Source of the DNA: Treponema sp.
GTDB taxonomy: Bacteria > Spirochaetota > Spirochaetia > Treponematales > Breznakiellaceae
Direction: 5' to 3'
Length of the DNA: 64,000 nt
Assembly (NCBI GenBank): GCA_031278095.1
Contig: JAITLC010000136.1
Location: 1-64,000, forward strand
The notes beneath the pieces were generated by a model. The model was not told the origin of the DNA. It ran no database searches and saw only the letters and a program-made list of their open reading frames with translations. Every line of letters starts with the position of its first letter. The first letter of the stretch is position 1. Below are positions 2,986 to 42,431 of this stretch, piece by piece. A program made the position numbers and the translations under genes.

Positions 2986-2992
2986 CTTGTGT

Positions 2993-15616: not shown

Positions 15617-15631
15617 AGCTGTACTTCTATT

Positions 15632-16843: not shown

Positions 16844-16895
16844 TTTTAATATGAGACTATACAGTGTTTCCGGTTTCTTGTAAACTTGCAGCCGC

Positions 16896-18341: not shown

Positions 18342-18395
18342 AAATATGCGTTTTATGCCTAATGCCTCATAATAAATCCAGCTGCGGCGGTTATG

Positions 18396-18424
18396 TTGAC
18401 AGTTTTGTCCATTTGACGTATTAT
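18396..18424 (+). promoter_or_regulatory. Consensus sigma-70 promoter of the tubulin operon
   Basis: TTGACA at 18396-18401 and TATTAT at 18419-18424 are separated by exactly 17 bases. The predicted start of transcription is near 18431, about 47 bases before the first gene. No other good promoter is seen until 34970, which fits one long operon. Confidence 0.75.
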
Positions 18425-18477
18425 TTAACCATTATTGTTATTTTTTGACGGCTTTATACTGCAAAAGGAGGGTCAGG

Positions 18478-19878
18478 ATGAAGCGGTTCCCGCTTATTTT
18501 GTGCGTTTTCTTGTTTTTTCTGTGTATCGCAAACCCTCTTTCCGCCCAGACCGACTGGTTTTTTGTTTTTGAACAGCCCGCCCGGGGTGAAGCGTCGGCT
18601 TCCGTTTTCTTTGCCCTCTTTTCCGCCCTGGTGGGCGACAGCGACACCGCTTCCATTATCACCTATTCCGATTCGCCTTACCTTGCGCTCCCGTCCCTTC
18701 CCGGCAGCCTCGACGGTCTCCTCCGCATGGCGGGCGAGCGGGTGTTCCCGCCGGGCCTTGAAGTCCTCCCCGTCGGCGGCAGCGCCCTTGCCGGCGCCTT
18801 AAAACTGGCAGGCCAGGAAGCCGCCCTTAACAGCCGCGGCAATTCCGTTCCGTGCAGGCTGGTCATCGTTTCCGGCGCCGGAACAGGTGAAAAAACGGAA
18901 GGCGCGGCCGACGCGGTCGCCGAGGCCTTCAGGGACGGAACCTATTATGTTTTCGTCGGGGCCGATCCCCCGGAAACCCTGATCGGTGAATTTTCCGACA
19001 ACAGCGTAATTGATCCTTCCAACCCTGCCGTTAGTCTTAAAGAATGTGTAGATAACATAAACGTCAAATTTAACCTTAACAGAAATTATGTGTACCCCAG
19101 CCCGGCGGGGACGGCGTTTTCGGTTTTCGGCCTTCCTAAATCGCGTAAGGTCTATGTCAAACTAACCCTTGTTTTTACCGGTGTTTCAGGCGACCCCGCA
19201 TTAACCGTAAACAATACCGCATTGGAAAACGCCGACCTCTACCCCTGCGGCCTCCCTTCCGACGGCGCTAAAAAAACCGTTGTTTCACTCCGCCGCCCTG
19301 CCGCCAAAATATATGCCCTCGATAGCGGCGGGATCGGCCTGGAAATGGTCATCGGGATGGAGAAAACCAATCCTCTCTTTTTCGTTTTTGTTGTAGGCGG
19401 AGGAATTTTAGCCGTGGTTTTGGCCGTGGTTTCTGCTGTTGTTTTCGTTTGGAAAAAGAGAGCCGCGGATAAAGAATCCGCCAGGGTGATATGTTTGTAT
19501 CGCGATGGTGAAGATACGGGGCAGCGTTATGAACTTCCTCCGCGGGAAGACGGCGTAAATATCAGGAAATTCACCATTTCCGTTTTTTCAATCTGCAGGA
19601 AACTGGGTGTTCAGGAAGATGTCATAATTGAGGACTTTGCGAACGCGGCGCTGATTAAAAAAGTAAAAAACAACTGGGTCATCATTCCGCCAAATTTTGA
19701 AACTAAAAAAGAAACAGAAGAGGAACCGGACGGCGAAATTGATTATACGGGCGGCGCCGCGCCTGAAAAAACAAAACAAAATACCGTAAATAGCGTAAAC
19801 ATTGAGAGTTTTCCGCCATCGGATTGGGAAAAATTCTTTAATGACGGCTTGACCACGTTGAAGTGTAAAAAAGTTTAG
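18478..19878 (+). CDS. VWA-like membrane protein with cytoplasmic tail
   Basis: The 466-residue product has a signal peptide (1-24), an extracytoplasmic region, one membrane segment (about 298-325, FVFVVGGGILAVVLAVVSAVVFVW) followed by KKR, and a cytoplasmic domain of about 140 residues ending in a charged tail. The outer region resembles a von Willebrand A fold (GDSDTASIITYSDSPYLALPS, PCRLVIVSGAGTGEKTEGAA, GTYYVFVGADPPE), but the DxSxS metal site is not evident, so metal binding is doubtful. ATG at 18478 follows AGGAGGG. It lies 19 bases before the tubulin-like gene. VWA proteins have been linked by gene context with divergent tubulin-family proteins, which makes it the candidate membrane anchor. 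Confidence 0.72.
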   Translation: MKRFPLILCVFLFFLCIANPLSAQTDWFFVFEQPARGEASASVFFALFSALVGDSDTASIITYSDSPYLALPSLPGSLDGLLRMAGERVFPPGLEVLPVGGSALAGALKLAGQEAALNSRGNSVPCRLVIVSGAGTGEKTEGAADAVAEAFRDGTYYVFVGADPPETLIGEFSDNSVIDPSNPAVSLKECVDNINVKFNLNRNYVYPSPAGTAFSVFGLPKSRKVYVKLTLVFTGVSGDPALTVNNTALENADLYPCGLPSDGAKKTVVSLRRPAAKIYALDSGGIGLEMVIGMEKTNPLFFVFVVGGGILAVVLAVVSAVVFVWKKRAADKESARVICLYRDGEDTGQRYELPPREDGVNIRKFTISVFSICRKLGVQEDVIIEDFANAALIKKVKNNWVIIPPNFETKKETEEEPDGEIDYTGGAAPEKTKQNTVNSVNIESFPPSDWEKFFNDGLTTLKCKKV

Positions 19879-19897
19879 GCAAAGCAAGGAGAGTATC

Positions 19898-22642
19898 ATG
19901 GGAAACACCGGAGCGCGGAAGGATGCGCCCCTTAACAATACAAGGGAGAATTACTACAACAAAATTGAAGAGGCCTTGTTCGGGGGAAACAATCCCTTTG
20001 AACTTTGCGAAGATGTTCTCGTTCTCATTATCGGCCTGGGCGGAACAGGCATGCGCTTTGTCGCGGAAACAAAGAAATTGTTCACAAAGCGTTATGGCGC
20101 CGAAACCCTTGCGAAAACGGTGACCTTTCGCTGTATTGACACGGATGCGGCCACGCTTAACGATCCCGCCTATTCTATTTTTGAAGACAATGAAAAGATT
20201 CCGATAAACGGCTTTACCCGCACCAGGTGGATTGACGGCTGGCTGTCCGAAACGACAAAAAAAGCCGATTTTGGAACAGGACGGGACGGCGCGGGCGGTA
20301 TACGTCCCTGCGGCAGATGGCAGCTGTTTTCAACAGAACGTTCCTTAACCAATGATTTTAAAGCAATCTTTGAAGGGTATGGAAGCAGACAGGATGAAAC
20401 GTCCCTAATCAGCCGGGTGTATATAATCGAGATCGCCTCAATTTACGGCGGCACCGGCTGCGGGACCTTCATAGACGTGCCCTATATTGTCCGCCACGCG
20501 ATGGAAAAGGCTGATTTTACCGTTCACACGGAATTTTACGGAATGCTGGTAACGCCGGACGCGGTTCATTTTAACAACGATGAAGACAAAAAGCAGGCCT
20601 ACGCAAACGGTTATGCCGCCTTGAAGGAACTGCAGTATTTTATGCGGAATGACTGTGAGTACAGCGCGTCCTTTGGTGAAAAGCAGGAGATGTGGGAAGC
20701 AGGCGGCAAAACTGAACGGAAAATATTCAAACAGGTGTTTTTGCTTTCCAACCGGGCGATAAAACCGACAGAGCGGCAGCAGATCAATCGCGGTTACAGT
20801 TTTGATAAAACCATGTACCTGGACGGCGCCATTCCGGAAGCCATCAATATTATGATAAGCAGGCCGAAAAGAGGAGAAAACGAAAGGGTGAACGGTATTT
20901 TTCGCGGATTTGCCAGCAAGATGAGCGATATAAACGCGCGCACGAACGACGCGGATATAGAAAGGGGACTGTTTGTCGCAACCTTCGGCGCGACAAAATC
21001 GGAGATACCCCTCGCGGAATTCATTATCGCTATTTTCAACCGTCTTTTTCTTGATTTAAAATTCTATTGGGACGAACTCAACAACCGGGAAAAAATCGAC
21101 AATCTTGCCGACAGGAAAATTGCCGCCGCTTTCAATGTAAGCGGTCTTTACGATGAAATTGTCTCCAGGCTGGATTTTGGAGGCATTAATTTTGACTCTT
21201 CGGAAGTCAATGAGCTAATCAGAAAGAGGCTTGATACGGTTGTTTCCGACCTGAATTCAAGCGACGCGGCGTTTATTGAGAGAATGAAGGGAGTGGTTGA
21301 CGGAATTTACCGGGCTTACGGACCCTTTGTTGTGAGTAAGGTGCTGGAAGATGACGTCTATAAAGAGAAACTTGACGGGAAAATTAAACAGGTTAAAGAG
21401 GAGAGGCTTTTGCAATTTCGGGAAAGCATAAAGGCCAACAACAAATCGGCCGTAACCGGCGATCCGGTTTCGCCCCAGGAAATAAGACAGGCGTTCAAGA
21501 AAAGAAATTCAGGATTGGGAAAAGACGCCAGGCAAAAAAGCAGGCAAAAATATGTCGGAATGTTAAATTGTCAGGACAAAGTCTTTAAAAAACTTGAGGA
21601 AATCGTTTCAAACAGGCAGAAAAAAGTTGAAACCGAAATTCATCAAAACATATATGACCGCGTTACGGAGATGATGCATAACAAAAAGACGAATGAAGGT
21701 CTTATTCCTTTACTGGAAGGTATTACCGGAATAAAGACAAAGGACAAATTCAGGAATACAGGCAACGGCGAAACCTGGACATGGGATTCTTCCGAAGTTG
21801 AATACGACAAGGTTCACAAAAAAGTTGATCTGATGTTCTCCAGGAAGCTGGTTTTGAAGAACAAAAAGGAAATCGTGATGAAAGAACCCGTATTTCGGAT
21901 AGAAGGCGGGGTTAAGAAAGAGGAAATTCTTTTTTGGCCTTCCGATGCAGGGCCGGTAGACGTTTTAATTGGAAATGATGAAGAAAAACACAGCGTGGTT
22001 TCCGTTGACGAGATGTTCTGCCTCAACGGAGCCGCAGCAGCGCCATTGCCGATTCATAACATGCTGATGGATTTTCTTGAAGATGTTAAAAACAATAAAA
22101 ATGACGGCATATTCGACCTTCTTGTGAAGCATTTCACGGAGATTATCAATCAGTTTACACGTCAGAGTTTTGTTGACCTGATGGTTATGAATTCCGACAG
22201 ATGGGATTTTTCATGGTCTATTGCGGACATGCCGGAAAGCGAAAAATTGGAAATATTCAAAGACGCCGTAACGCGGTTTAAACTAAGAGGGCTGCCGAGT
22301 TTCTTTGTTGCCGATGATCATGCGCAAGACCTTTTTACCGATTCGCTTTTTTCTATTCTTCTTCAGCCCTCTTTTGAAGAGCCTTACCAAACAATCCTTC
22401 AAACAGACAATACTGAACAAATTGTCAAATGGGGTAACACCGTTCCCCTGGAACGGGATCATCTTAACAGCATGATGATTTCAGTCAACTTTTACTTCAA
22501 ATACGGGCTTGACTGGTTCAGAATACTGAATGAGTGCCGGGACGAATACAACGAACGAATCAAGGCCGTTTCCATGCATCTTGCGGACGGCGGTAAGGAA
22601 AACTGGCTGGCCGAGGGCAAATTGAAAGATATTGGCGGTTGA
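19898..22642 (+). CDS. Tubulin/FtsZ-superfamily protein (Tubulin_2-like)
   Basis: This 914-residue cytoplasmic protein starts like a tubulin-fold GTPase: strand and loop VLVLIIGLGGTGMRF (40-54), TFRCIDTDAATL, and the tubulin signature GGTGCGTF (184-191, DNA 20447-20470) that binds GTP phosphates. It is more than twice FtsZ length; residues about 400-640 are strongly charged and helical (RKRLDTVVSDLN, RQAFKKRNSGLGKDARQKS), probably a coiled-coil extension, and a further alpha/beta region follows. It fits the little-studied Tubulin_2 type group rather than FtsZ, TubZ or BtubA/B. ATG follows AAGGAGAG. No division genes are nearby; a membrane-remodelling or scaffold role with the neighbouring VWA-like and ABC proteins is inference. 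Confidence 0.8.
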   Translation: MGNTGARKDAPLNNTRENYYNKIEEALFGGNNPFELCEDVLVLIIGLGGTGMRFVAETKKLFTKRYGAETLAKTVTFRCIDTDAATLNDPAYSIFEDNEKIPINGFTRTRWIDGWLSETTKKADFGTGRDGAGGIRPCGRWQLFSTERSLTNDFKAIFEGYGSRQDETSLISRVYIIEIASIYGGTGCGTFIDVPYIVRHAMEKADFTVHTEFYGMLVTPDAVHFNNDEDKKQAYANGYAALKELQYFMRNDCEYSASFGEKQEMWEAGGKTERKIFKQVFLLSNRAIKPTERQQINRGYSFDKTMYLDGAIPEAINIMISRPKRGENERVNGIFRGFASKMSDINARTNDADIERGLFVATFGATKSEIPLAEFIIAIFNRLFLDLKFYWDELNNREKIDNLADRKIAAAFNVSGLYDEIVSRLDFGGINFDSSEVNELIRKRLDTVVSDLNSSDAAFIERMKGVVDGIYRAYGPFVVSKVLEDDVYKEKLDGKIKQVKEERLLQFRESIKANNKSAVTGDPVSPQEIRQAFKKRNSGLGKDARQKSRQKYVGMLNCQDKVFKKLEEIVSNRQKKVETEIHQNIYDRVTEMMHNKKTNEGLIPLLEGITGIKTKDKFRNTGNGETWTWDSSEVEYDKVHKKVDLMFSRKLVLKNKKEIVMKEPVFRIEGGVKKEEILFWPSDAGPVDVLIGNDEEKHSVVSVDEMFCLNGAAAAPLPIHNMLMDFLEDVKNNKNDGIFDLLVKHFTEIINQFTRQSFVDLMVMNSDRWDFSWSIADMPESEKLEIFKDAVTRFKLRGLPSFFVADDHAQDLFTDSLFSILLQPSFEEPYQTILQTDNTEQIVKWGNTVPLERDHLNSMMISVNFYFKYGLDWFRILNECRDEYNERIKAVSMHLADGGKENWLAEGKLKDIGG

Positions 22643-22675
22643 AAGGCTCAAATTCATTTTAAGTAAGGACGTAAA

Positions 22676-23065
22676 ATGCCTGCCAAACAGAACATGTTCA
22701 ATCGGCCTCTCTTTTTTTCCACTTTCCCGGCGGGTTTTACACGGCGGCTGCCGGGTGGGGAGATTGCGGTTTTTTTGAAAAAAGAGCCGCATATAGCCCT
22801 TCCCTTCCCTGCTGTTTCCTTTTATTTTATTTTTCTAACCCTGTTTGCGGCAGCGGCGGCCTTTTACATCGAAAACGCGCTGCCCCGGATGTTGAGCGTT
22901 TACTGTTTTCATTGGGCTGTTAAAGCGTCTTTTGCAAAAGCGCTTGTCATAATAACGCTGTTAATGTTAATTTCAGCCAAAACCGGGAGCCCGGATTCCG
23001 CGGACAGCGGTTTTCAAAGGGGACGAACGGAAAACATGGCAAAGGGGAGTTTTGGCAATGATTAA
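22676..23065 (+). CDS. Small membrane protein of the tubulin operon
   Basis: The 129-residue protein has two likely membrane spans (about 45-65, SFYFIFLTLFAAAAAFYIE, and 84-100, FAKALVIITLLMLISA) between a short basic N-terminus and a polar tail. It has no recognisable domain. An AAGGA site precedes the ATG, and its stop codon overlaps the start of the ABC ATPase gene by 8 bases, which supports it as a real, coupled gene. I cannot assign a function. Confidence 0.6.
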   Translation: MPAKQNMFNRPLFFSTFPAGFTRRLPGGEIAVFLKKEPHIALPFPAVSFYFIFLTLFAAAAAFYIENALPRMLSVYCFHWAVKASFAKALVIITLLMLISAKTGSPDSADSGFQRGRTENMAKGSFGND

Positions 23066-24701
23066 ACTCTCAAATATCAGATTATGTGATAACAATAACA
23101 ATTCCTTCCTCGAATTTAAAGATGAATATTGTTTTGAAGAGAATACGGTATATTTTATCATCGGGCGCTCAGGCTGCGGGAAAACTTCGCTCCTGGATTT
23201 TTTGACCGCTCCTTTTACCGAAGATCCGCTTAAATCAGGCGACATTGATATAGACGGAAAAAAATTCAATGTCCGTAATTCATTTGCCGGCAATAAAAGG
23301 AATTATTATAAAATTGCCAACAGGCGTTTTGCTTTTATTCCGCAGAAGACAGATTCTTTCCACCCGGACAAACCGGTTGCCGGGCAGATGGAGGATTTTT
23401 TCAAATCCGCAAGGAAGGCAGGGGCGGATTACGGAACCGGAAATTTTGCGGATCGGGTTTCGCAATGCGCAAAGGCGGCGGGATGGGATTCGCTTGCCAT
23501 CGACAGGGGGAAAATCTTTATCGACAGCGATAACAGGCGCCCGAGGGTATTGCAGGGAGATTTTTCGTCCGGCCAAAAACAGCGCCTGTTAATTTTAAAC
23601 GGACTTGTCCAGTTCAGTCTGATGGAAAATCCTGTTTTAATCGCGGATGAAATTTTTGTGAACTTTAGCTGGGCGGAAGCAAACAGTGTTTTGCGCGGAA
23701 TGTTGGATATTTTCAAGGCAAAAAACAATGACGGCCGCAAAAAAACGGCGATTTTCATACTCCATGATCTGTCTTTTGACGCCATAGAAAAGATCAATTC
23801 TTTAAACGGGAAAGATGACGCCATTAATGTTAAATTGATCATCCTGGAAAGAAATGAAAACATTGTCGGCAAGTATGAGCCTGAGTTTGCGGAATTTAAC
23901 GCGGGCAGGTGCGCGGATGAACCTGCCCGGTCTTTCCATGAAAGTTATCGCAGAGAGGCGCTTAAAAACTGCGTGTTTTCCGCCGGCGCTTCCAAAGAAA
24001 ACCTGTACGAACCGTTCATTATAGACAGACCGCCAAAAAAGTATCCGCAGGATCTTTATTCAAACGTAGAAATTGCCGTTAAAAAGAATCACTTTATAGT
24101 GTTAACCGGTCTTTCGGGAACAGGCAAAACAACGCTGGTGCGTCAAATCATCGAAGAAAAAATAGAAAAGAGCCGGATAATGAAAATTCGGTATATGCCT
24201 TCCGAAATTCTTTCTTCCCTTACCGATGACGGCAGAACGACCCTTTATCAGGATCTCTCCATAATTTATAAATTTTACAATGGAATGGAAAAACCGGAAA
24301 ATTGCGTGGAAAAAATCAAAGAGACCTTCAACATGGTCGAGTTTAAACACGGAAATCTGCCTGAAGACCTGAAAAGAAAAGTTTTTGAACTTTCGGGCGG
24401 CGAACAGCAGCGTTACTGGCTTGCGCGCCTTTTGTTTGCGGGGGACGAAACCCCCGAAATTCTCATTCTCGATGAAAGTATCGCGAGCCTTGATTGTATT
24501 ACCAAAAATAAGATCATCAGGGTGCTTTTGGAAAAATGCATGGTTCAAAAGAACATGACCGTTCTGCTTGTTTCGCATGATATTCGTGACATTGCGGTTA
24601 TACAGAAAACCCTTGAAGAAAATAATGCCGGTGCGGTATTTGAAAATTATGACCTTGTAAATAAAAGGTTGTCTCTCTCAATTAAGGAAGGGAAGGCATG
24701 A
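23058..24701 (+). CDS. Fused double ABC ATPase (oligopeptide-type)
   Basis: The 547-residue protein joins two ABC ATPase domains. Domain 1 has Walker A GRSGCGKTS (36-44), signature FSSGQKQR, Walker B PVLIADEIF and switch histidine IFILHDLS. Domain 2 has Walker A GLSGTGKTT (351-359, Lys357), signature LSGGEQQR (about 445), Walker B ILILDESIASLD and LLVSHDIRD. Domain 1 has weaker signature and D-loop sequences, so one of the two sites may be poorly active. The arrangement equals OppD plus OppF in one chain. I use ATG at 23058 behind AGGGGAG; a TTG lies at 23052. Its partners are probably the fused permease and the binding protein of this operon. Confidence 0.85.
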   Translation: MIKLSNIRLCDNNNNSFLEFKDEYCFEENTVYFIIGRSGCGKTSLLDFLTAPFTEDPLKSGDIDIDGKKFNVRNSFAGNKRNYYKIANRRFAFIPQKTDSFHPDKPVAGQMEDFFKSARKAGADYGTGNFADRVSQCAKAAGWDSLAIDRGKIFIDSDNRRPRVLQGDFSSGQKQRLLILNGLVQFSLMENPVLIADEIFVNFSWAEANSVLRGMLDIFKAKNNDGRKKTAIFILHDLSFDAIEKINSLNGKDDAINVKLIILERNENIVGKYEPEFAEFNAGRCADEPARSFHESYRREALKNCVFSAGASKENLYEPFIIDRPPKKYPQDLYSNVEIAVKKNHFIVLTGLSGTGKTTLVRQIIEEKIEKSRIMKIRYMPSEILSSLTDDGRTTLYQDLSIIYKFYNGMEKPENCVEKIKETFNMVEFKHGNLPEDLKRKVFELSGGEQQRYWLARLLFAGDETPEILILDESIASLDCITKNKIIRVLLEKCMVQKNMTVLLVSHDIRDIAVIQKTLEENNAGAVFENYDLVNKRLSLSIKEGKA

Positions 24702-26428
24702 AAAATCATTGGCTCTTTAAACTTTGCGGCCTGTTTTTTGTCTTTGCTGTCTCCTGTAATCCTGAAAAAAGAACCGGCATGGAGCCGATTGAGTATAAAT
24801 TTGAAGATGATACTTATTTTGCCGTTCTTTTGCCGCAGGAAGAAATAAGGCAGATGCGGCTTGTAAAACGTAAAGACGAAACAGAAGTCATTTATGCTGA
24901 TTTTAGAAATTTGAGTGATAAAAGAATACAAAAACTCGAAAGCGGCGATTATTTTATCACCGTAAACGGCGTCGAATTTGACATAGACGAACTTAAATCA
25001 ATACAGCAGGACATAATTATTCGTCTGACCGCAAAAGGCCCGAGGAACAACTGGGTAAAAGTTGAACCTGTTTTACCCTCGCCGGTAGTGTTCAGACGAA
25101 ACGGCGAGGCGGATCGCTTAAAAAGCATCCCCGAAATGCAGAGATATTATATTGCTGTCCGCGATCTTGATAAATCGATTATACCGGAGAAGCTCAAGGC
25201 GCGGCTGTCAGGCAAAGACATTCTTGGCAATACCGTGGACGACGAGTTCGATTTTAATACCCGAACAGGTGATCGGATACGCAGTTCCCGCATGATACCG
25301 GGTTATATTATAGGCGATTTTGTTTTAACCGTTACCATTGACGGCTCCTCAAACAGCGATTACCCGCCGCTTTCTTTCAGTGTCATTGACAATGATACGG
25401 CCGGTCCGCGAATTGTAAATAAGGACAACAAATTTTATTTTAACAGGGACAAGGAAACGCGGGTCAGATTGCAGTTTGTTGATCCTTCCGGCATTGATGA
25501 GGAAAACACCCGGATTAAATATAACGGGATCGAATATAGGCCGACAAGATTCCGCTATACCACGGCGCGAACTCATGGTTTTGCGGAATTTACCCTGGGT
25601 GCGGATGTTTTAGAGGATGTTCAAAAAGGACAAATCGCGAAAATAGACTATCATTTTCCCGATGCCGACAAACACCATCCGGGCGACCAGGAAGTGAGTA
25701 GCGGGACAATATCCATGGAAGAAGGCGGCATTGAACAGGAATATTTGTTAAGCCGGGGTGACGGGCATCCTCTGCCGGGCGTTCAGGTAACGGTATTCAG
25801 ATCCGAGGGCGGTTTGTCGAAGCAGACGATGGGCCCCGCCGCTTATCGGGACTATTACAACTCAGGCGAAAGAATCGCCGGCGATATACGGGATTCAGTT
25901 TACACCGATAAATACGGTATAGTAACAATAGAAAATATTCCTCCCGATACAGATCTTGTTTTTGCGGTGGGCAGCGAAGAGACGAATCATTATCTTCGCG
26001 AAGTTCCGGGCATTGGCGGGCCGCGCGGCACAATAAGCATCTCATTCGGGGAAATTCCGGCAAAGGGAAGCCTTGTTATAAGTGCGACAATCGCGCCGGG
26101 CGCGCTTGACGATTGGCTTAGTGTGTATGAAACAGACAATTCCAGAACACCCTATCTTTATTACGAATCGGACAAAGAAGCGGGACCAAGACGCGAAGAC
26201 TTCCTGAACGGGAATCCGCAGCGTATAGAAGGTCATTTCAGGAAAATATCGGACGATAATTACGAGTTTGAATTCGATTTCGGGGAGACAATTATTTCCG
26301 AGATCGAAAACGTCAATTACCTTCTGGTTGTACACTTTGATTCCATGGGAGATTTTTCCATGGCTAACGCCCGTTCTATGGGTTACCGGCAGGAAGCCGA
26401 ATTGAGCACTCAATTGTCGAGGTTTTAG
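24698..26428 (+). CDS. Large lipoprotein of the tubulin operon
   Basis: The 576-residue product has a lipoprotein signal (FVFAVSC, cysteine at about residue 24). The body is beta-rich, with many DxDG-like turns and a segment (about 350-430: LPGVQVTVFRSEGG, VYTDKYGIVTIENIPPDTDLVFAVG) that looks like a carboxypeptidase-regulatory-type beta sandwich. No enzyme motif is visible. It overlaps the ATPase gene by ATGA, so its expression is coupled to it. It probably sits on the outer face of a membrane as a structural or binding part of this operon's complex; I do not recognise the family. Confidence 0.75.
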   Translation: MKNHWLFKLCGLFFVFAVSCNPEKRTGMEPIEYKFEDDTYFAVLLPQEEIRQMRLVKRKDETEVIYADFRNLSDKRIQKLESGDYFITVNGVEFDIDELKSIQQDIIIRLTAKGPRNNWVKVEPVLPSPVVFRRNGEADRLKSIPEMQRYYIAVRDLDKSIIPEKLKARLSGKDILGNTVDDEFDFNTRTGDRIRSSRMIPGYIIGDFVLTVTIDGSSNSDYPPLSFSVIDNDTAGPRIVNKDNKFYFNRDKETRVRLQFVDPSGIDEENTRIKYNGIEYRPTRFRYTTARTHGFAEFTLGADVLEDVQKGQIAKIDYHFPDADKHHPGDQEVSSGTISMEEGGIEQEYLLSRGDGHPLPGVQVTVFRSEGGLSKQTMGPAAYRDYYNSGERIAGDIRDSVYTDKYGIVTIENIPPDTDLVFAVGSEETNHYLREVPGIGGPRGTISISFGEIPAKGSLVISATIAPGALDDWLSVYETDNSRTPYLYYESDKEAGPRREDFLNGNPQRIEGHFRKISDDNYEFEFDFGETIISEIENVNYLLVVHFDSMGDFSMANARSMGYRQEAELSTQLSRF

Positions 26429-26433
26429 GCGGA

Positions 26434-28560
26434 ATGAAAAAACTATATATCCGTATATTACTGATGTTCTTCCCGTTTTTCCTCGCCGCGCAGACGGTTG
26501 AATTCACCAATAAATTTTTTGCCGCTTCTTTCGGCAATGATATGTATATGGCGTTTGTGTATGGTGATAAACTGGAAATAATGAAAAGGGACGGACGCGG
26601 CGCTTTGGTTCAGGTCAGGCTTGATTACCGGGCCGTAGGATCTTCGCGGGAAATTGTCGTCATAAAGGACGAACTTTTACTCTATGACCGCGCCAAAAAT
26701 ATTTCCGTTTATGATTTAAACATTTTAACGGCGCCGGAAAATCATGGTAAAACGCTCGAATACCGTACCGGCCGCATCAAAGTGATAGAACATATTCAGT
26801 CCATCACTTCCATGGAAGATTCACTGTATTTTATCAAAGATAAAGATTCATCCCTCTATGAATATACCGGAAGGGGAAACGCATCGGCTGTTCAGGACGT
26901 TTTGCTGCGCAACGCTACCGGCGCGGCAAAATATTTGCTTTATTATCCGTTTGCCGCCGAGCGCAGAAACCGGTATCGCCGGCTTGAACAGAATTTCGGC
27001 GGAATTGTCGGCAGATATATGGATTCTTCCCTGCCGTCAATTGAAAAAGAATTGGAGGGGCTTGCCGATGAGAAAAAGAAAAACAGTTATTTGTACGGCA
27101 TTGTTACGGATAAATTGAAGAATGCTTCCGAATCGGATAAACGTACATTTACCGACTATGTTATTGTTTCAAATTTGCTTGGTGAAACTTCGTATCTGGC
27201 CCGGCTGAATCCTCTGCGCCAGCCCGATTTAAAGTCGGTGCAGACGGCAAGCGAAATTTCCATCAGGGACTATTATGAGCAGACAGCCGCCATATACAAT
27301 TTTACCAACAATGAACAAAAGCGGCGCAATGATAAAATACAGGCCGACTACGCCGCCGGCATTGCATCAAAAAACAGGGATATGAAAAATCAATATGGGG
27401 AAAGTTTTGATTCCCTTAACAGGGAAATAAATGAACTGGATAAAAGGCTTCAGCTAAAAAACTGGATCGGCTCGAATGGCACGGTGACGGAATACAGAAG
27501 CAATAAAGACAGGATCGGGGGATATGATACTGAGCTTGTTTCTCTTTCCGAAAGCAGCCGCTTTCTTACCAATGAATATCGCGATCTATGCGGCCTGTTC
27601 ACATTTTTCTCCGGCGAAAACGAGTCGGATTATTCAGGTAAGATCATAAGCGGAATTATTGACCTTGGCCGCGCTGTTTCGGGGCTTCAAAATAAAGCCA
27701 AAGATGAATATATTAAAAGCCGAATCAACGCAAAGCCGTCCGTAAGCCCAAAATCACTTGCAGAATTTAACAGGGATTATGAAAATTACAAAACGGAAAA
27801 AGCAAAACTTGAAAAAAACAGGGATGATGCGCTGCGCAGCGTCGATGCCGATATAAGGAATGACATTAATGCCGCCGGGAGGAAAAAAGCCTCAGATGTC
27901 GAAGCAATCAACAACTATATAAGAAAACAATACCTCAATGATGCCTATGAGGAATTTAGCAGAATTGTTTCCAATAATAAAATGTCGGACTACAGCCCCA
28001 GGCTGCAAAATGTAACCGTTGTCTCGCCCGAAGAAAGGGTTCTATTTGGTTTTTCGATAAAAGACCGGATCGATTTCGATAAAGTGAACATACCTGTAAA
28101 TAACAATAACAGGCAGCCAATTTTTTCCACGCCTTCCCTGTATTCGGTGCTGGCGCGAAATAAAACAATGGCCGCCCTTGTCGCGGAACCAAAAAAGTTG
28201 AAATTCTATATTATAGACGGGAATAACATTGCCAATCTTAATAAAAGTTTTGATATAACGGTGAATGAAGAATTGTTTTATATCCTTTCCGGCCCTGATT
28301 GCATATATTATGTTACCCGGACGGGGAATGTTCACCGTTTGCGTCCGGCAGGTTCGTCTTTCGAGGACAGTGTTCTTCGGGAATTAAAACTCGGGGATAA
28401 TGACGCCCTGGTTATCTCTTCCTCCGGGGGAACGGTTATTTCTTCGGATGGAAAGGTGAATGGGAGGGATTCGGGCAATGTGACGCTTAATGCAAGAAAT
28501 GTTCCGTCGAGGACGGTAACAGTAAAAATCGCAGACAAACAAATTACCTGGGAGAGATAA
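26434..28560 (+). CDS. Secreted propeller-like protein with coiled-coil insert (708 aa)
   Basis: A signal peptide (1-19, FFPFFLAAQ) starts this exported protein. The N-terminal 160 residues and the last 170 show repeated short beta strands with YxxD and YFIKDKDSSLYEYTG or CIYYVTRTGNVHRL type blades, suggesting one broken beta-propeller. Between them (about 190-500) is a long helical, charged region with coiled-coil character (YENYKTEKAKLEKNRDDALRSVDADI). I know no family for it. The gene at 33013 has the same layout, so the two may be distant paralogues. It lies 5 bases after the lipoprotein stop and abuts the binding-protein gene. Confidence 0.72.
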   Translation: MKKLYIRILLMFFPFFLAAQTVEFTNKFFAASFGNDMYMAFVYGDKLEIMKRDGRGALVQVRLDYRAVGSSREIVVIKDELLLYDRAKNISVYDLNILTAPENHGKTLEYRTGRIKVIEHIQSITSMEDSLYFIKDKDSSLYEYTGRGNASAVQDVLLRNATGAAKYLLYYPFAAERRNRYRRLEQNFGGIVGRYMDSSLPSIEKELEGLADEKKKNSYLYGIVTDKLKNASESDKRTFTDYVIVSNLLGETSYLARLNPLRQPDLKSVQTASEISIRDYYEQTAAIYNFTNNEQKRRNDKIQADYAAGIASKNRDMKNQYGESFDSLNREINELDKRLQLKNWIGSNGTVTEYRSNKDRIGGYDTELVSLSESSRFLTNEYRDLCGLFTFFSGENESDYSGKIISGIIDLGRAVSGLQNKAKDEYIKSRINAKPSVSPKSLAEFNRDYENYKTEKAKLEKNRDDALRSVDADIRNDINAAGRKKASDVEAINNYIRKQYLNDAYEEFSRIVSNNKMSDYSPRLQNVTVVSPEERVLFGFSIKDRIDFDKVNIPVNNNNRQPIFSTPSLYSVLARNKTMAALVAEPKKLKFYIIDGNNIANLNKSFDITVNEELFYILSGPDCIYYVTRTGNVHRLRPAGSSFEDSVLRELKLGDNDALVISSSGGTVISSDGKVNGRDSGNVTLNARNVPSRTVTVKIADKQITWER

Positions 28561-30753
28561 ATGAAGAAATCCGCCCTTGTTCCGCTTTTTATCGCTATTG
28601 CGGCTGTTTCCGTTTTTTCACAGGCCGGAGGAAACGAAATTACCGTCAATTTGACGACTTCATTTAAGATCGATCCGATTACCGGTCTCTGCGGAGATAA
28701 ATATGAGGAAAACTCAAAATTTGTCCAGCGATTCATTTACTCTCCTCTTATAACGCCCCTGCAGGATCCGTATCTTCAAAACGATTATAAAGTTTCCTAC
28801 CAACTTTCCATTATTAGTGAACTTGAGCATTATTCAACCCGAAGGGGCTGGGAAAGGTATGAAATGACCGAAAACAACGAATCAAAACAGCCCGGTTATT
28901 ATTCTATTTATAAAATAAAAATACGCCCCGGTTTGCGGTTTAACTTTTATGATAAAAGGGGAAGGAAAAGCAGCTTCCCGCTTGGAAATGAGGATATCGT
29001 CTTTTCGTACCGTATGGCGCGGGTGACCATGGACAGAAAGTTTGATGAATACATCAACATGAATAAAAAGAATGATAAAACACTGGAAATAAATACTCTG
29101 CTTTACACAAAGGTGCGCGCTTTTTCCAGGGTTTATTGCGATAATGAATATGTATATTTTGAAATGTTCAATCAATGCGAACCTTTTTCTTTTTTACGTA
29201 TGCTGGCCTATGTTCCTGTCTTGCCCGCGGAAAAGATGCATGGAGATATTAAAACACAGGGGAAGAAAGAATATAACGAAACAAGAAGACCGGACGCGAT
29301 GACAGATTTAAAAGATAAGGATTTTTATGATCTGCATAAAAAAAACAAACTGAATATTCTTAGCGACGAACCGGTCGGCTATGGTCAATTTTTGGTAAAA
29401 AAAATGGGAATGTCCGAAAAGGGCATCTATTCTTCCATTACATTGGAACGAAACCCTTCCTGGTTTGATTTTTTGATTAAGGGGCCGGGCGGAATAAATC
29501 ATTTTAATTACCGGAATGACAACTTAACCATAAACATCGAGGGAGGAAATAAAAAAGTCCGTGAATTGATAAATGAAATAGCCAGCAGGGGCGGTCAAAA
29601 TGATTTGGTTTACAATATTCCCGTTTCTCTTACATCCTTCTCGGTATTTGATGAGAATAATAACCCCATTGACATAGAGAACATGAATCTGGACAAAAAA
29701 GAAATGCAGATATCGCATAATTTATACGGTCTGCTTTTCGGGCCTGATTTTGTGGACAGACGCGGGAATACGCCCATGCCTTATGATTTACGGCAATTTT
29801 TCGGAAAATTTATAGGCCGGACGGCTATTCAGAATGTAATACGATACGGAACGATTGACACCCAGATTAACAGCTTTTTGGGTGACGATAAATTCTTTTT
29901 ATCCGACATTAATGTAAAGCGGCTTTATTATCCATTTTATTCAGGAGGAACAAAAACAAATTCCGAAATTGACGAAATCTACGCGCGTTTTGAAGACAAA
30001 GACAGATTGTCGCGGGAATATATCTCTGCCATTAGCGGAGACTCTGTGTCAAGACTCAGATTTTATTATGGCAGTCTGCCGGGTGATTTTAACGGAGATG
30101 AAAAAGCGGCGTTTAGAAACCGTTATATGCTGGGATATTTGTCTGAAAATATGAACAGGGATTATTCCAGGAATTTAAAGAACGAATATGCCAAAATAAA
30201 AGACAAATTGAACATCTCCAACAATGAGATAAAAATACAGATTTTTTATTCGTCCGAAGACGCGGTCTGCAAAGACATTGCAGATTATTATGCCGAGGTG
30301 CTGAATGATTTTTTCAAAAATGACATTCATCTTGATACCGACATTAAACCCCAGTATGCAGATTACGATGATTGGATGAATAAAGCAAAAGACAACAGAC
30401 GCAAAAATATTTACACTTTTTTTGTTTATGGCTGGAACGACAAACTGGATTTGTTGAATGACCTTTCAAATCAGTTTATTGACGACTATTCGATTCGAAA
30501 TATCCGCAGGGTTTATCAGGATGTTATTGATTCGCGGCAGCCTATCGAAACAATAATCGCGCAAATTGCGGAAAAATTCGATTTTGACCGCAACCGGGAC
30601 GCCCTTCCTTTGCCTCTTGTTTCAGTTCAGAATTATTCAATATTTAAAAAGAAGCCGGACGGAACGCAGAGCGCCAACCCTGTATTGAACGCGATTAACA
30701 ATCATCCGGATCTGCAAATGATGCTGCTTCCGTATTACTGGAGGGAGCGATGA
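28561..30753 (+). CDS. Oligopeptide-binding-protein relative (SBP family 5-like)
   Basis: The 730-residue exported protein (signal peptide about 1-21) keeps landmarks of OppA/DppA binding proteins: IKIRPGLRFNFYDK followed by NEDIVFSYRMARV (about 119-155), matching the usual LRKGVKFHDG and AEDVVFSY segments, then GYGQFLVKKMGMSEKG and SITLERNPSWFDF, and late in the chain EIKIQIFYSSEDAVCKDIADYY. It is about 200 residues longer than the normal family member encoded at 50053, with several Lys/Asn-rich insertions. It starts directly after the preceding stop and overlaps the permease gene by ATGA. The ligand may not be a peptide. Confidence 0.78.
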   Translation: MKKSALVPLFIAIAAVSVFSQAGGNEITVNLTTSFKIDPITGLCGDKYEENSKFVQRFIYSPLITPLQDPYLQNDYKVSYQLSIISELEHYSTRRGWERYEMTENNESKQPGYYSIYKIKIRPGLRFNFYDKRGRKSSFPLGNEDIVFSYRMARVTMDRKFDEYINMNKKNDKTLEINTLLYTKVRAFSRVYCDNEYVYFEMFNQCEPFSFLRMLAYVPVLPAEKMHGDIKTQGKKEYNETRRPDAMTDLKDKDFYDLHKKNKLNILSDEPVGYGQFLVKKMGMSEKGIYSSITLERNPSWFDFLIKGPGGINHFNYRNDNLTINIEGGNKKVRELINEIASRGGQNDLVYNIPVSLTSFSVFDENNNPIDIENMNLDKKEMQISHNLYGLLFGPDFVDRRGNTPMPYDLRQFFGKFIGRTAIQNVIRYGTIDTQINSFLGDDKFFLSDINVKRLYYPFYSGGTKTNSEIDEIYARFEDKDRLSREYISAISGDSVSRLRFYYGSLPGDFNGDEKAAFRNRYMLGYLSENMNRDYSRNLKNEYAKIKDKLNISNNEIKIQIFYSSEDAVCKDIADYYAEVLNDFFKNDIHLDTDIKPQYADYDDWMNKAKDNRRKNIYTFFVYGWNDKLDLLNDLSNQFIDDYSIRNIRRVYQDVIDSRQPIETIIAQIAEKFDFDRNRDALPLPLVSVQNYSIFKKKPDGTQSANPVLNAINNHPDLQMMLLPYYWRER

Positions 30754-33026
30754 AAAAACCATTGGCGACCGCGGGAAAATATGCGTTTTTCATCGTTTTA
30801 ACGCTGTGTATTGTAAGCACGGTATTCATGGAAGACCCCGTTTCCATACTTGGGGATACATTAAAGGACGGGCAATGGCTGCCATTGCCTTCCACCGTCA
30901 TGACATTGGTAATATGCATCGTGCTCTTTATCGCCTTAATATTTATACTTTCGCTTTTTTCGTCTTTTTTTTCAAACTTTTTTTTCAACTGCGGAATATG
31001 GATTAAATGCGCGGTGTTTATATTGGGCATTTTGCCCCTTTCGCTGACTACTGAAGTGTTGTTTGCAAAATATGGATTGGTGGTTTTGTATCTCGGTATC
31101 GTTTATATTTTCTTTAATATTACATATGCCTGTTTACGGCCAAAAATGGCATATATAATAAAGTCATCCTTTAACGGCAGATTGGGGCATGGATTAAGAT
31201 ATGTTGAATATATTATCGTCGAGGCAATAATTGTAGTCCTTTCCTGGAAATTGCTTTCCTGTATCATTCCGGAAAACATGACTCATTTTTCAATTAATCA
31301 CAGCGTAAAGTCAGACTTGATAACTACCGGCATTCTCTATCCGTATACGGTTGTTTTTAATACCATTAATTTCTTTGTTATTGAATATTGTATTAATGTA
31401 TTTAATACCGAATACAAGAAAAATTACGTTAAATATTATTTTAAATATCATGATGGTTTGTTCAAAAGATTTAAATTTTTATTAAGGAAGACGATGCCGT
31501 TAATACTTATTAAAATTCAAAAAAACATTACCTGGATTGCCGCTTATGTTCTGATGCTTGAAGCGGTATTCAATTACAATAACGGTGAAATTGGAAGCAC
31601 ATTGATGAAGTATGCCGGTCCTGATGTTTATTTTAAATATTTTTCCCATATAATTTTATTTATGATGATTGTAAATCTTGTATTTGATGCTGTAAGATCA
31701 AGGCTGGAGGCCGCCGGTAAACCGGTGTCCGATTCAAATGACAGGGCTGAAAAAGCGAAATTCAGGGGAACCGTTCCAAAAACCGAAGTTTCGGAACGGC
31801 CCCAGGCAGCATGCCCGGAGAATATATTGATTCATGCATGTCTTGCCGCGATAATATTCTTTTTGTTTATATTTTGTCAATTTCAATACCCTTTTGCGGC
31901 ATATTATAATTTTGATGAAAACACGTTAAAAACACTGGACGATTTTATAAATGTCAAAACAAATAATGTGCCCGAATCCGTTGTTTTTTCTGATCCGGAT
32001 TATGATATTCATAAAAACAGATCGCTGTGCCAAATAGGAAAAGGGAATTTGTATACCCGGTATAATGTAATGATTTTTAATGTTAAATACAACAATAAAA
32101 GCATGAAGATTATTCCTTATTTTTACAAAGGGCGTCCGCAGACAATCTATTCACAAAACAACAGCCTGTCAAATCTGCGGCAAAATATGATCATAGAAAA
32201 TATTGGTTATAGATCAATAACGGTTCCGTCATTTCTTGATTATAAAATATATTTGGGTGCAAATCTCGACCAGGGCCAGGGTTTAAACGGCAATAAACCG
32301 GTTTTCCTGCTGCTGCCTTTCTTTTTGTTATATTTTTTGATATTGTTTTTTGTCGTATTTTCAATAACATTCCTTGTTTACAGAAAGGCGCTATTAAACA
32401 GTTTTAACCAAAGGGAAGGGGGATTTTTGAAATTCGGCGGGCATGCCGGCAAAATATTGGTTGAATATCTGTCGGCGATAACAATTGTCGGGACAATATT
32501 GATTATAAACCGGTTTATAAATCATTATCTGAACATAACATGGCAGGAAAAACCCCTCTATTTAAATCTGATTGTGTTTGTGATTTTACAAATTATAATA
32601 GTGATAATGTTCAGCGATAATTATACCATGACCTTCAACAAAACCATCAGGAAATTTGTTGATTCTGATGAATATAATTATTATAAACTAATAGGAATGA
32701 ACAATAATTACATAATTGATATTTATAACAAAAAATACGGCAATTTTATGCTTCATAACCAGACTTTTCAGAATCTTTTTTTTGTTATTGCCGTAAATTT
32801 CTTTATTGTGTATCTTTTTACGGTAATTCAGGATTTTGAAGACTATATAGGCATAAAATATACACTGGGTTTTGAAAATGTGTTTACCAGACTTGTCTGC
32901 GAAAGAAAAACGGACATTGCCGCCTCTGAATATATAATTCCGCTGCTTGCCTATTGTGTTTTTGTCGCCCTGGCATATATAATTTCCCGCTATTTTATAA
33001 AAAGGAATTGTTATGGAAAAATATAA
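30750..33026 (+). CDS. Fused double permease, oligopeptide-type (OppB-OppC-like)
   Basis: The 758-residue membrane protein appears to hold two divergent permease halves. In the first, the segment at about 222-330 (YVKYYFKYHDGLFKRFKFLLRK, read as two parts, then MLEAVFNYNNGEIGSTLMKYA and IVNLVFDAVRSRLE) follows the order of the OppB coupling loop, E-x-VFN-x-x-G and the C-terminal NL-x-x-D segment. In the second, EYNYYKLIGMNNNYIIDIYN (about 637-656) occupies the place of the OppC EAA loop, before two membrane spans. An extracytoplasmic stretch of about 120 residues precedes the second half. Homology is by layout, not strong identity. Codons are very AT-rich. Confidence 0.68.
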   Translation: MKKPLATAGKYAFFIVLTLCIVSTVFMEDPVSILGDTLKDGQWLPLPSTVMTLVICIVLFIALIFILSLFSSFFSNFFFNCGIWIKCAVFILGILPLSLTTEVLFAKYGLVVLYLGIVYIFFNITYACLRPKMAYIIKSSFNGRLGHGLRYVEYIIVEAIIVVLSWKLLSCIIPENMTHFSINHSVKSDLITTGILYPYTVVFNTINFFVIEYCINVFNTEYKKNYVKYYFKYHDGLFKRFKFLLRKTMPLILIKIQKNITWIAAYVLMLEAVFNYNNGEIGSTLMKYAGPDVYFKYFSHIILFMMIVNLVFDAVRSRLEAAGKPVSDSNDRAEKAKFRGTVPKTEVSERPQAACPENILIHACLAAIIFFLFIFCQFQYPFAAYYNFDENTLKTLDDFINVKTNNVPESVVFSDPDYDIHKNRSLCQIGKGNLYTRYNVMIFNVKYNNKSMKIIPYFYKGRPQTIYSQNNSLSNLRQNMIIENIGYRSITVPSFLDYKIYLGANLDQGQGLNGNKPVFLLLPFFLLYFLILFFVVFSITFLVYRKALLNSFNQREGGFLKFGGHAGKILVEYLSAITIVGTILIINRFINHYLNITWQEKPLYLNLIVFVILQIIIVIMFSDNYTMTFNKTIRKFVDSDEYNYYKLIGMNNNYIIDIYNKKYGNFMLHNQTFQNLFFVIAVNFFIVYLFTVIQDFEDYIGIKYTLGFENVFTRLVCERKTDIAASEYIIPLLAYCVFVALAYIISRYFIKRNCYGKI

Positions 33027-34656
33027 AAATTACAGACAAAAATCTTTCATTGTGATTATTTTCATATTTATTGCATCCGGTATGCCGCTTGCCGCCGCCG
33101 GCAGCTCGAGCAAAAACAATGCGAAGCTGGCGCCCGCAATTGGCATAAACAATGATAATTCAATATTGGTATTTTATCAGGATAATGAATATTTATATAT
33201 TGATGAATATACTGTTAACAGGGACACAAGAAAAATACAAAAAATAAAAAATGAAAATAATATGTTTATAAAAAGCGAAAGTGATAAAAATAAATTATAT
33301 TCCCAATATTTAAGTAACGGCGGAATATTGTTTATTAACGGAAATACATTGTCCGGGATCGACATATCTCAAAAAAAGCCTGTAAAGATTGCGGAGAATG
33401 TAAAACAGGCCGTATTTACGCCGGATAGATGTTTCTTTCTTTCAGCCGATGGTTCGTTCCATCTATATAATCCGATAGATAAAGAAATAAAAAAAATGTT
33501 CGATTGCGGCCCGGAAACCAACGGTTATCTGGAGGCTGTAAAAAAACAGGAATATAAAAATATGCTTGAACAGGACGCAAAAAGCTGGCTTGAAACAAAG
33601 ATTGACGGTTTTTCCTCAAATAATCCTGATGTTACATTTACCGATGCGGAAAAACATATGATTAACCGTTATGCGCTAATAATGAATAATCCGGATTCCG
33701 GAATAACCGCGGAAGAGTGGATTTCTTCCCTGCGGCAGGATTTAGAAGACAACAGAAAGAGCGAAGAATCGGCATCTGATATTCTTAAAAACAACAACAC
33801 AATACCGGAGAATTTAAAATACAGGATCGCTTACCGGGACGGAAATATTAATGTTCTCCTTGATTACACGGAAAATATTGATTTGATACTTCCTGCAAAT
33901 TCGTCTGTCAACACAAATATACGCACTTACAATAAATTGCTGGAATATAAGACCGGCTCCTATTCGCAAAATTCAAAAGCTGTAATAGAACGGCTGAAAA
34001 ATGATGTAAAAGAGGAAATTGAAACATATATCAAAACCGAATACGGTAAGATTATGCTGCAAAGTGAAAATTATCGGAATGCCATAAAGGATCTAAAAAA
34101 AGAATATACGCTTAACAATATAAAGGCCGATCCGTTTTCCGGGCCGAAAGGAGGTTTTGACTTTTTCCCTGCCGATGAAGAATATATTGTTTTTTGCAAA
34201 AGAATTGAATTTGATGAAGAGTATTACAAAAATTTTGCTTCTATCGGTCAAAAAATGTCATTTATAAATATATCTGACAATGGTTTTTTTGTAATAGAAA
34301 ATGGCAGACAGTACTATTACAATGCCTTTAATCTGGAAAAAAAGGAAACTTCGTTTAGGCAGGAAGGGGAAGTTCTTTTTGCCGTTCCCGGAAACGGAAA
34401 CATCACTGTCACCAGGGGCGGGCAATATCAGATAAAAAACAGCGATAAGTCCTCTGCACTTCTCCGCAATGACAGGAAATCAAACTATGCCGTAGATGGT
34501 TTATTTTATCTGGATATACTGCCTTTAACGAATGGGAAAAGCATATTGTATGTAAATACGGAAAACAACAGCCTTGATTCTTCCGTTAGAGAAGATTATA
34601 TTTACATAAAACTAAACGGAAATAACGGTCTTGTAATGCCAATGGAGGTAAAATGA
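33013..34656 (+). CDS. Secreted propeller-like protein with helical insert (547 aa)
   Basis: A signal peptide (about 9-29, SFIVIIFIFIASGMPLAAA) is followed by short beta-strand repeats (SILVFYQDNEYLYIDEYT, CFFLSADGSFHLYNP), a helical charged region (about 170-370), and a second beta-rich part (YIVFCKRIEFDEEYYK, FFVIENGRQYYYNAFNLE). This is the same order as the 708-residue protein at 26434. The family is unknown. It overlaps the permease gene by 14 bases with AAAGGA as ribosome site, and the next gene by ATGA. The base composition is among the most AT-rich in the window. Confidence 0.7.
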   Translation: MEKYKNYRQKSFIVIIFIFIASGMPLAAAGSSSKNNAKLAPAIGINNDNSILVFYQDNEYLYIDEYTVNRDTRKIQKIKNENNMFIKSESDKNKLYSQYLSNGGILFINGNTLSGIDISQKKPVKIAENVKQAVFTPDRCFFLSADGSFHLYNPIDKEIKKMFDCGPETNGYLEAVKKQEYKNMLEQDAKSWLETKIDGFSSNNPDVTFTDAEKHMINRYALIMNNPDSGITAEEWISSLRQDLEDNRKSEESASDILKNNNTIPENLKYRIAYRDGNINVLLDYTENIDLILPANSSVNTNIRTYNKLLEYKTGSYSQNSKAVIERLKNDVKEEIETYIKTEYGKIMLQSENYRNAIKDLKKEYTLNNIKADPFSGPKGGFDFFPADEEYIVFCKRIEFDEEYYKNFASIGQKMSFINISDNGFFVIENGRQYYYNAFNLEKKETSFRQEGEVLFAVPGNGNITVTRGGQYQIKNSDKSSALLRNDRKSNYAVDGLFYLDILPLTNGKSILYVNTENNSLDSSVREDYIYIKLNGNNGLVMPMEVK

Positions 34657-34970
34657 AATCACGGACGGTATTATTTGCTGCTGTCGCTTTACTGGTATCA
34701 GGCTGTTCAGGTTTTATGGGTGATACCGGGAAGGATTCTGCCGTATTTAACGATGCTTCGGTCAAAAACATTGTCAATTTTGTCCCGAAGGGAAAAATGG
34801 ATGTAGACGCTCTCATCAAAGACGAAACTGCCGACGGTAAAAACAACGACGGTAAAATCGTTAAATCCATAATAAAATTTAACCTGGGCGAAGTCAGGCA
34901 AATTGATGATTCCTCGAAAGATTCCGACCTGAAAAAGCGGCTGTCTGCCGTAAAGAATGCTTTAAAATAA
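34653..34970 (+). CDS. Small lipoprotein ending the tubulin operon
   Basis: The 105-residue product has a lipoprotein signal, VALLVSGCSGF (cysteine at about residue 18), then a short polar domain with FVPKGKMDVDALIKDE and a lysine/aspartate-rich C-terminus. No known domain. It overlaps the preceding gene by four bases and is the last gene of the operon; a 196-base gap follows before ileS. Confidence 0.68.
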   Translation: MKSRTVLFAAVALLVSGCSGFMGDTGKDSAVFNDASVKNIVNFVPKGKMDVDALIKDETADGKNNDGKIVKSIIKFNLGEVRQIDDSSKDSDLKKRLSAVKNALK

Positions 34971-35166
34971 AAGCGGGGAGACCGGCGGTTTGAGATAACC
35001 TCGAACCATGCGAACGGAAGAAAATTCGGGCAAAAATGAAGGCCGTCGAAGCAAACGTTCGTGTCTGTCCGCGTCGTGGTAAACCGGGAATTGCTGCCGC
35101 TATTCCCTATTTTTTTCATTTGTGGCATAGTATAGCCAGATTGTTCTGCTGCTTCGGAGGAATTCT
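34971..35166. other. Gap between the tubulin operon and ileS
   Basis: The 196-base gap has a short hairpin, GGTTTGAG (34987-34994) with CTCGAACC (35000-35007), but no T-run to make it a clear terminator. No T-box-like or tRNA-like structure was recognised ahead of ileS. GGAGG at about 35157 serves the ileS GTG start. Confidence 0.4.
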
Positions 35167-41954: not shown

Positions 41955-42281
41955 CTTTATTCGCAGCGGGGTCCAATACCCAAGAACCCGCTTGCGCGGG
42001 GGAGCTTTAGGGTGGTTAGAATCGGCAACGCTGTCAAAAAAGTGGTAGTAGAGCCCACAGTTAAATAGAGTCTGTCTATAATGTAGACACAGTATAGACA
42101 GACTACCTTAAAACAGGCATTTTGCGCACCGTTTTGGTACAAAAAGATGCGCAAATGCAAGGTCTGTCCATAAAGTAACCGGCTTTATGGAAAGACACTA
42201 AATAATTTCCCTGCAGAACGAAGCTCGTAAACGATGCAACGCTTATACGATACCTCGCCCTTTAGGGCGAAGAGGTTCATT
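41955..42281. repeat. Dispersed 190 bp repeat, copy B (interrupted)
   Basis: It is the inverted counterpart of 735-924. It is split by a 131 bp element at 42068-42198; removing that element and one copy of TAAATA restores a length of about 190 bp. Conserved blocks are the same as in copy A, for example CCCGCTTGCGCGGG and GAAGCTCGTAAACGATGCAA. Confidence 0.85.
42068..42198. mobile_element. MITE-like GTCTGTCC element, 131 bp, with target duplication
   Basis: The element is bounded by TAAATA on both sides (42062-42067 and 42199-42204), while the empty site at 812-817 has one copy. The ends GAGTCTGTCTATAATG and, reversed, GTGTCTTTCCATAAAG are imperfect inverted repeats. Three hairpins follow one another; the middle one has GCGCACCGTTTTGGTAC and its partner. 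It has no coding capacity, so it would need a transposase supplied from elsewhere. Confidence 0.8.
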
Positions 42282-42288
42282 AAGAGGC

Positions 42289-42405
42289 GGACTTGTTCCA
42301 AAACTCAGGTTTTTTCTGAACAAACTCTTGGGAAACCGGTCAAGTTCGATTTCCCCATTAAATCCAAGGTTACTGTTCCAAAATTTGACATTTTGGAACA
42401 GCCTC
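42289..42405. repeat. TGTTCC-family inverted repeat element, 117 bp copy
   Basis: The left end GGACTTGTTCCAAAAC and right end TTTTGGAACAGCCTC form the family ends. It is homologous along its length to 11936-12051 (shared AATCCAAGGTT, ACTCTTGG, GGTCAA). It ends 15 bases before the nudC ribosome site. Confidence 0.75.
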
Positions 42406-42431
42406 GGGTACTATTTTTGCGGAGGTTTACC

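Follow-up and report, generated by a model that had tools for sequence, protein, structure and literature searches.

Does an operon that places a tubulin-like protein beside the parts of an oligopeptide-type ABC system encode one machine? The question is raised by a window of 64,000 nucleotides from a Treponema sp. genome (contig JAITLC010000136.1), in which ten genes (here g1 to g10) follow one another. The operon was compared with a second genome, G336 (Treponema sp. Pcl387_bin11, contig JAITIK010000114.1), and with related loci in other spirochaetes.

Operon organization

The ten open reading frames are co-directional on the + strand (18478–34970), and the gene block is present almost exactly as described earlier. 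Their positions bear out the original prediction of ten tightly packed genes with five overlapping junctions, and one good promoter precedes them. The overlaps lie at g3/g4 (14 nt), g4/g5 (4 nt), g7/g8 (4 nt), g8/g9 (14 nt) and g9/g10 (4 nt), and g6 and g7 touch. The start of g1 was placed at ATG 18478, behind AAAAGGAGGG; the longer start at TTG 18445 is unnecessary. An AGGAGG precedes ATG 18478. The candidate promoter (18396–18424, + strand) is a sigma-70-like TTGACA-N17-TATTAT site that agrees with the consensus, its sole basis, at 11 of 12 positions and ends 54 bp before the g1 ATG. It is one of the two best among 55 sigma-70-like sites found in the region. Shuffled sequences gave 37 such sites, so that its assignment as the operon promoter is plausible, short of proof. 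On the + strand, the interval from g10 to the IleRS gene (35167) showed no terminator-like site.

The tubulin-like protein and its membrane partners

Residues 43–386 of g2 (19898–22642, + strand, 914 aa) match the Pfam family Tubulin_2 (PF13809; E = 3e-42, score 146 against a curated cut-off of 27 bits). A tubulin fold had been expected for residues 35–350, and the match agrees with this as profile evidence. The GTP-binding loop motifs GLGGTG (at residue 46) and GGTGCG (at residue 184) are both also present in the G336 protein, which is 37% identical to g2. Proteins of the FtsZl1 (FtsZ-like 1) family, described by Makarova and Koonin (2010, PMC2875224), have an N-terminal FtsZ-like domain with a GGTG loop and a long C-terminal region, and the gene just before theirs usually encodes a VWA-type membrane protein. 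By its Tubulin_2 match and its two loops, g2 is, at the level of sequence, a bona fide FtsZl1 protein in the sense of these authors. Few tubulin/FtsZ families are as diverged as FtsZl1. In a tree, g2 and the G336 protein form a pair (100/100) that a very long branch sets apart from the other spirochaete FtsZl1 proteins; the deep placement of the pair is unsure. g2 is the sole Tubulin_2 protein found in the window genome. No experimental study of FtsZl1 function was found in the searchable literature.

g1 (18478–19878, + strand) had been called a VWA-like membrane protein. The second half of this label stood: a signal peptide and a periplasmic domain are followed by one transmembrane segment (about residues 296–330) and a cytoplasmic tail, which is the layout of the VWA protein preceding FtsZl1 at loci L057 and L041. 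The first half is weaker. VWA_2 is the only Pfam family matched by the outer domain of g1 (E = 0.016) and by its G336 homologue (L035; E = 0.013), both matches miss the first part of the domain, comparison of g1 with VWA by hhalign gave E = 0.19, and the MIDAS is absent, neither protein having the metal-binding motif DxSxS. 'VWA-like without MIDAS' is a fair description of g1 on these profile matches. In G336 the tubulin gene stands between two VWA-type genes (VWA1-TUB-VWA2), of which VWA2 encodes an intact VWA membrane protein (1e-12). Its place in the window is taken by g3 (22676–23065, + strand), a small protein with two transmembrane segments. g3 was rejected as a remnant of VWA2 (alignment score no better than shuffles), and a search of the window genome, run without a positive control, found no VWA2 homologue.

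The ABC core

The original prediction held that the operon encodes a full ABC set, and this is supported through homologues for the binding protein and the permeases. g4 (23052–24701, + strand) is the fused double ABC ATPase that had been described: it contains two PF00005 domains, each with Walker A, signature and Walker B sequences, as expected of a family 5 ABC transporter, with both Walker A/B pairs intact and both H-loops present. The Q-loop of NBD2 has Ser instead of Gln in the window, G336 and G295, and Gln in G037 and G147.

g7 (28561–30753, + strand, 730 aa) is secreted and has no direct Pfam match. That it is a diverged family 5 solute-binding-protein homologue, as first proposed, was borne out through intermediates. 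BLAST links g7 to proteins of G037 (2e-11) and G147 (1e-13), and these match SBP_bac_5 (PF00496) at 4e-27 and 5e-31, respectively. Profile comparison of the g7 family with the same two proteins in hhalign gave a probability of 99.5%. A PDB profile search with the G037/G147 binding-protein pair (alignment A5) found solved family 5 binding proteins, than which g7 is about 200 residues longer; searches with alignments A2 and A3 returned nothing relevant.

g8 (30750–33026, + strand) is a multi-transmembrane protein with a soluble domain between its halves. It had been described as a fused double permease. A direct family match is absent from g8 itself (no Pfam match, BPD_transp_1 included), and support for this part of the claim comes from the agreement of its halves with separate permeases elsewhere. 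In the G295 homologue, the N-terminal half gives a BPD_transp_1 match of 2.6e-5, which falls slightly short of the curated score. In profile comparisons, permease B of G037/G147 aligned to the N-terminal half of g8 and permease C to the C-terminal half, in order. The EAA motif sits in a loop of BPD-type permeases, and both alignments fall at the loop where it is expected. Column shuffles scored as well in one of 60 (N-terminal half with B) and two of 60 trials (C-terminal half with C), and the crossed comparisons, run as a control, gave noise. These comparisons lend moderate support to the reading of g8 as two fused permeases of the BPD type. AlphaFold models of g7 and g8 from three-sequence alignments (pLDDT 38 and 36, respectively) were discarded.

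Secreted proteins and lipoproteins

Two lipoproteins are encoded. g5 (24698–26428, + strand; lipobox AVSC) has a homologue in G336 and a weaker one in G037, and the small g10 (34653–34970, + strand; lipobox VSGC) has one in G336 (E = 3e-6, z = 11). g6 (26434–28560, + strand) and g9 (33013–34656, + strand) are secreted, as predicted. Judged by eye, g6 has beta-rich ends around a helical middle, and g9 has a similar layout. Both had also been called propeller-like, for which neither gave a significant match in the window; the label stays putative, the G336 homologue of g6 (E = 1e-30) matching PQQ_2 weakly (E = 0.0015). In the place of g9, G336 encodes a 439-aa secreted protein with no clear homology to it.

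Distribution among spirochaetes

Co-occurrence of the tubulin-like gene with the same neighbours in another genome had been set beforehand as a test, and it was found in G336. The gene order there is VWA-like protein, SH3-domain protein, tubulin, VWA2, ABC ATPase, lipoprotein, secreted protein, binding protein, permease, 439-aa secreted protein and small lipoprotein. Recurrence of this order indicates that the block is more than chance, and the presence of the same block in a second genome argues against an assembly error at the window locus. Among 200 genomes of the family, the binding protein was found in three and this tubulin in two, both times inside the ABC operon. The tubulin link thus rests on two genomes, G336 being a metagenome assembly and the window genome a draft of 157 contigs. 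A weak tubulin match in G421 (E = 2e-4, one internal stop) was left out of the count. A contig scan with the two-row tubulin alignment found only the known G336 locus; its patterns are very specific, so it is silent on non-spirochaetes. Viral contigs and phages were also searched and gave no matches.

The original prediction had placed the ABC set and the tubulin in a single kind of system. In that form it was not supported, as the same ABC set occurs without a tubulin in three genomes. In G295 the order is ABC ATPase, two other proteins, secreted protein, another protein, binding protein, permease and a leucine-rich-repeat protein. In G037 and G147, which belong to two other spirochaete families, it is lipoprotein (in G147 a related protein stands in this position), secreted protein, binding protein, permease B, permease C and fused ABC ATPase. 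These two operons (L055/L056) share with the window the order from lipoprotein to permeases and the fused double ATPase, and differ from it in their separate permeases and in having no tubulin or VWA genes. The permease fusion is therefore probably derived. Conversely, VWA-FtsZl1 pairs occur without an ABC set at L057 and L041 and likewise in Meiothermus, and in G551 such a pair forms a locus of its own, on an 8.3-kb contig that carries no ABC gene. ABC sets free of tubulin indicate that the tubulin/VWA pair is an add-on and that the ABC core stands alone in other genomes.

Island character

Congeners are homologous to the window up to 15608 and again from 35097, so that positions 15609–35096 form a species-private stretch; three congeners were informative for the right-hand break and two for the left-hand break. 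In G450 the two flanks of the stretch are on different contigs. Congeners with 92–94% IleRS identity have no such binding protein. The GC content of the operon is 34–52% (nine genes at 34–48%, g1 at 52%) against about 53% in the flanks; in G336 it is 40–49% against 52–57%. The window genome and G336 are 75% identical in IleRS, as against 23–38% in the operon proteins, with the tubulin and the ABC ATPase equally diverged (both 37%). In G336 the operon and the IleRS gene are on different contigs, and the sites of the operon in the two genomes are unlinked. Rarity (two of 200 genomes), AT-richness, unrelated sites and the difference in identity together make the block look like a horizontally acquired island. 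It would have reached the two genomes in separate events, or at least have been put in place independently in each.

Proposed machine

We regard it as about an even chance that the operon encodes a modular, horizontally acquired envelope ABC machine to which a known VWA-FtsZl1 pair has been added. Its core would be a derived oligopeptide-type ABC system composed of the binding protein g7, the two permeases of g8 and the two ATPases of g4. The core would carry dedicated partners facing the periplasm or the outer membrane, namely the lipoproteins g5 and g10 and the secreted g6 and g9. From one operon would thus come a putative tubulin-like GTPase of the cytoplasm, a membrane protein whose cytoplasmic tail can reach this GTPase, and the ABC machine. 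g7 and the secreted partners may capture a bulky ligand in the periplasm, and g8/g4 may spend ATP to move the ligand, or a signal, across the inner membrane. g2 would assemble in a GTP-dependent manner beneath the complex, held by the tail of g1 (in G336 also by the second VWA protein), and its assembly might cluster the ABC complex or switch it on and off. We infer the physical complex, the polymerization, the direction of transport and the ligand. The original proposal, in which the tubulin assembles at the inner face, is anchored by the VWA-like tail and drives an envelope-spanning complex, may likewise be envisaged.

Since the linkage was kept through two placements, the tubulin, where present, probably serves the ABC core, which in general does not need it, as its tubulin-free relatives indicate. 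Those same relatives mean that the two parts may be coupled loosely, or through shared transcription alone. In addition, the altered NBD2 Q-loop and the extra length of g7 suggest that transport itself may have been lost. A stronger form is rather doubtful: the operon would encode a cytoskeleton-coupled transporter that spreads horizontally among spirochaetes, with a tubulin-superfamily polymer on the cytoplasmic side that organizes or gates the dedicated ABC transport machine. The operon suggests that the poorly understood FtsZl1 family can serve a transport machine. The tubulin-free ABC forms provide a natural control, and with the same machine available with and without the tubulin the transport reading is directly testable.

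Alternatives and relation to known systems

The VWA-FtsZl1 pair and the ABC set might instead be unrelated accessory cassettes that share a mobile island and a promoter and form no joint machine. The tubulin-free ABC sets of G295, G037 and G147, the ABC-free pairs of L057, L041 and Meiothermus and the island character would all fit. Against this stand the same order at different places in two genomes, with both modules similarly diverged, and overlaps of 4 to 14 nt through the ABC part, and we consider it unlikely.

Tubulin/HSP70/GTPase/vWA conflict systems have been described (Kaur et al. 2020, PMC7159879), and the operon shares with them a tubulin-superfamily protein with VWA-like membrane proteins. 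On this model FtsZl1/VWA would sense or trigger in an NTP-dependent manner, with the ABC/permease part serving as a membrane effector or as a route of signal uptake. On a Meiothermus plasmid, vWA-tubulin genes lie a short distance ahead of brxL within a defence-like stretch, and the window operon is a rare, AT-rich island adjoined by a caspase-like gene. The caspase-like gene, however, has flank-like GC, and none was seen beside the G336 operon. Neither a TRAFAC GTPase nor an HSP70 was found in the window operon, where only g4 gives P-loop matches (led by ABC_tran) and an ABC set stands instead. PADLOC matches concern g4 only, are of the kind that any ABC ATPase gives and were discarded as a defence signal. 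A defence role is improbable. The spirochaete locus L038 looks like a system of the conflict type.

A role in membrane remodelling or vesicle formation, which was put forward for FtsZl1 in 2010, with the ABC set powering work on the envelope and not transport, in the manner of FtsEX or LolCDE, is improbable. The FtsZl1-VWA-membrane association (PMC2875224) and the many secreted and lipoprotein partners point that way, and the best NCBIfam matches of g4 include FtsE and LolD. The FtsE and LolD matches, however, are far below their cut-offs and generic for ABC ATPases, and the relatives of g7 and g8 are a binding protein and BPD permeases and not transmembrane proteins of the FtsX/MacB type.

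The modular ABC machine with an added VWA-FtsZl1 pair can be set against two known types of operon. With Opp/Dpp importers it has in common a family 5 binding-protein homologue, two probable permease cores of the BPD type and two ATPase domains in one operon. It differs in its fused ATPases, its fused permeases with a soluble insert, four extra secreted proteins and lipoproteins, a tubulin partner and a g7 with about 200 extra residues that scores under the Pfam threshold. With the known FtsZl1/VWA operons, in which the VWA partner is usual but not universal (PMC2875224), it shares an FtsZ-like domain with GGTG, a long C-terminal region and an upstream VWA-like protein. In contrast to these, the VWA-like protein beside the tubulin in the window is without MIDAS, there is no GTPase, kinase or OmpA protein, and a full ABC set is built in.

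No described system was thought to link a tubulin-like protein to an ABC set. This has to be qualified: the authors of 2010 favoured membrane remodelling, while a reviewer proposed a role for FtsZl1 in transmembrane transport from single-genome neighbours (PMC2875224). The transport role was set aside at that time because conservation of the transport neighbours did not reach past one or a few close relatives (PMC2875224). A literature search of open-licence papers found none on FtsZl1 within an ABC operon. Reviewer 1 of PMC2875224 noted a lack of contact points, and the cytoplasmic ATPases and the tail of g1 would offer points of this kind. Here FtsZl1 lies inside a complete ABC operon, with the order kept at unrelated places in two genomes.

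Genomic surroundings of the operon

A secreted caspase-like protease and a secreted papain-like (C1) protein are encoded head to head upstream of the operon (window 15632–18341). The former matches Peptidase_C14 (7e-39) and contains TPRs. The pair lies within the species-private stretch, yet its GC content resembles that of the flanks.

Nitrogenase-like protein pairs are encoded at window 58132–61065 and at 201–3089 of locus L034. In the window the pair is ~23 kb from the operon, and in Treponema sp. Pcl387_bin11, the second genome with a tubulin and ABC operon, it is located downstream of the operon, past two genes; its proximity in both genomes is probably coincidental. A short dispersed repeat (~40–140 nt), common to the window and congeners, occurs in several window copies (at about 10.65, 12.0, 39.6, 42.2–42.4 [42204–42437] and 51.7 kb).

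Related loci

In the tubulin-free ABC operons of two other spirochaete families, permease C (L055 7060–8211 and L056 6889–8019) carries a conserved, zinc-ribbon-like double-cysteine insert with the motif C-x-A-x-NNGSR-x-QCR-x-CG. After the operon in L055 (genome G037) comes a gene for a genuine WD40-propeller lipoprotein (1663–4182; PF00400, 5e-75).

An additional case of FtsZl1 adjoining a binding protein was found on a Cylindrospermopsis plasmid (L064 7998–13461), where a PhnD/SsuA-type binding-protein gene is convergent with the FtsZl1 gene. On a Meiothermus taiwanensis plasmid (L063 8273–14706), a vWA, tubulin-like and hypothetical trio is followed immediately by brxL, with DUF1156 and Swt1-HEPN genes nearby; the trio looks as if it were a component of a BREX-like defence locus. 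In the spirochaete locus L038 (9618–20000), a Tubulin_2 gene precedes genes for another large protein, for DnaK and for a protein resembling MotA/ExbB, a set that is probably a GTPase/HSP70-type system; a related gene set is present in L039.
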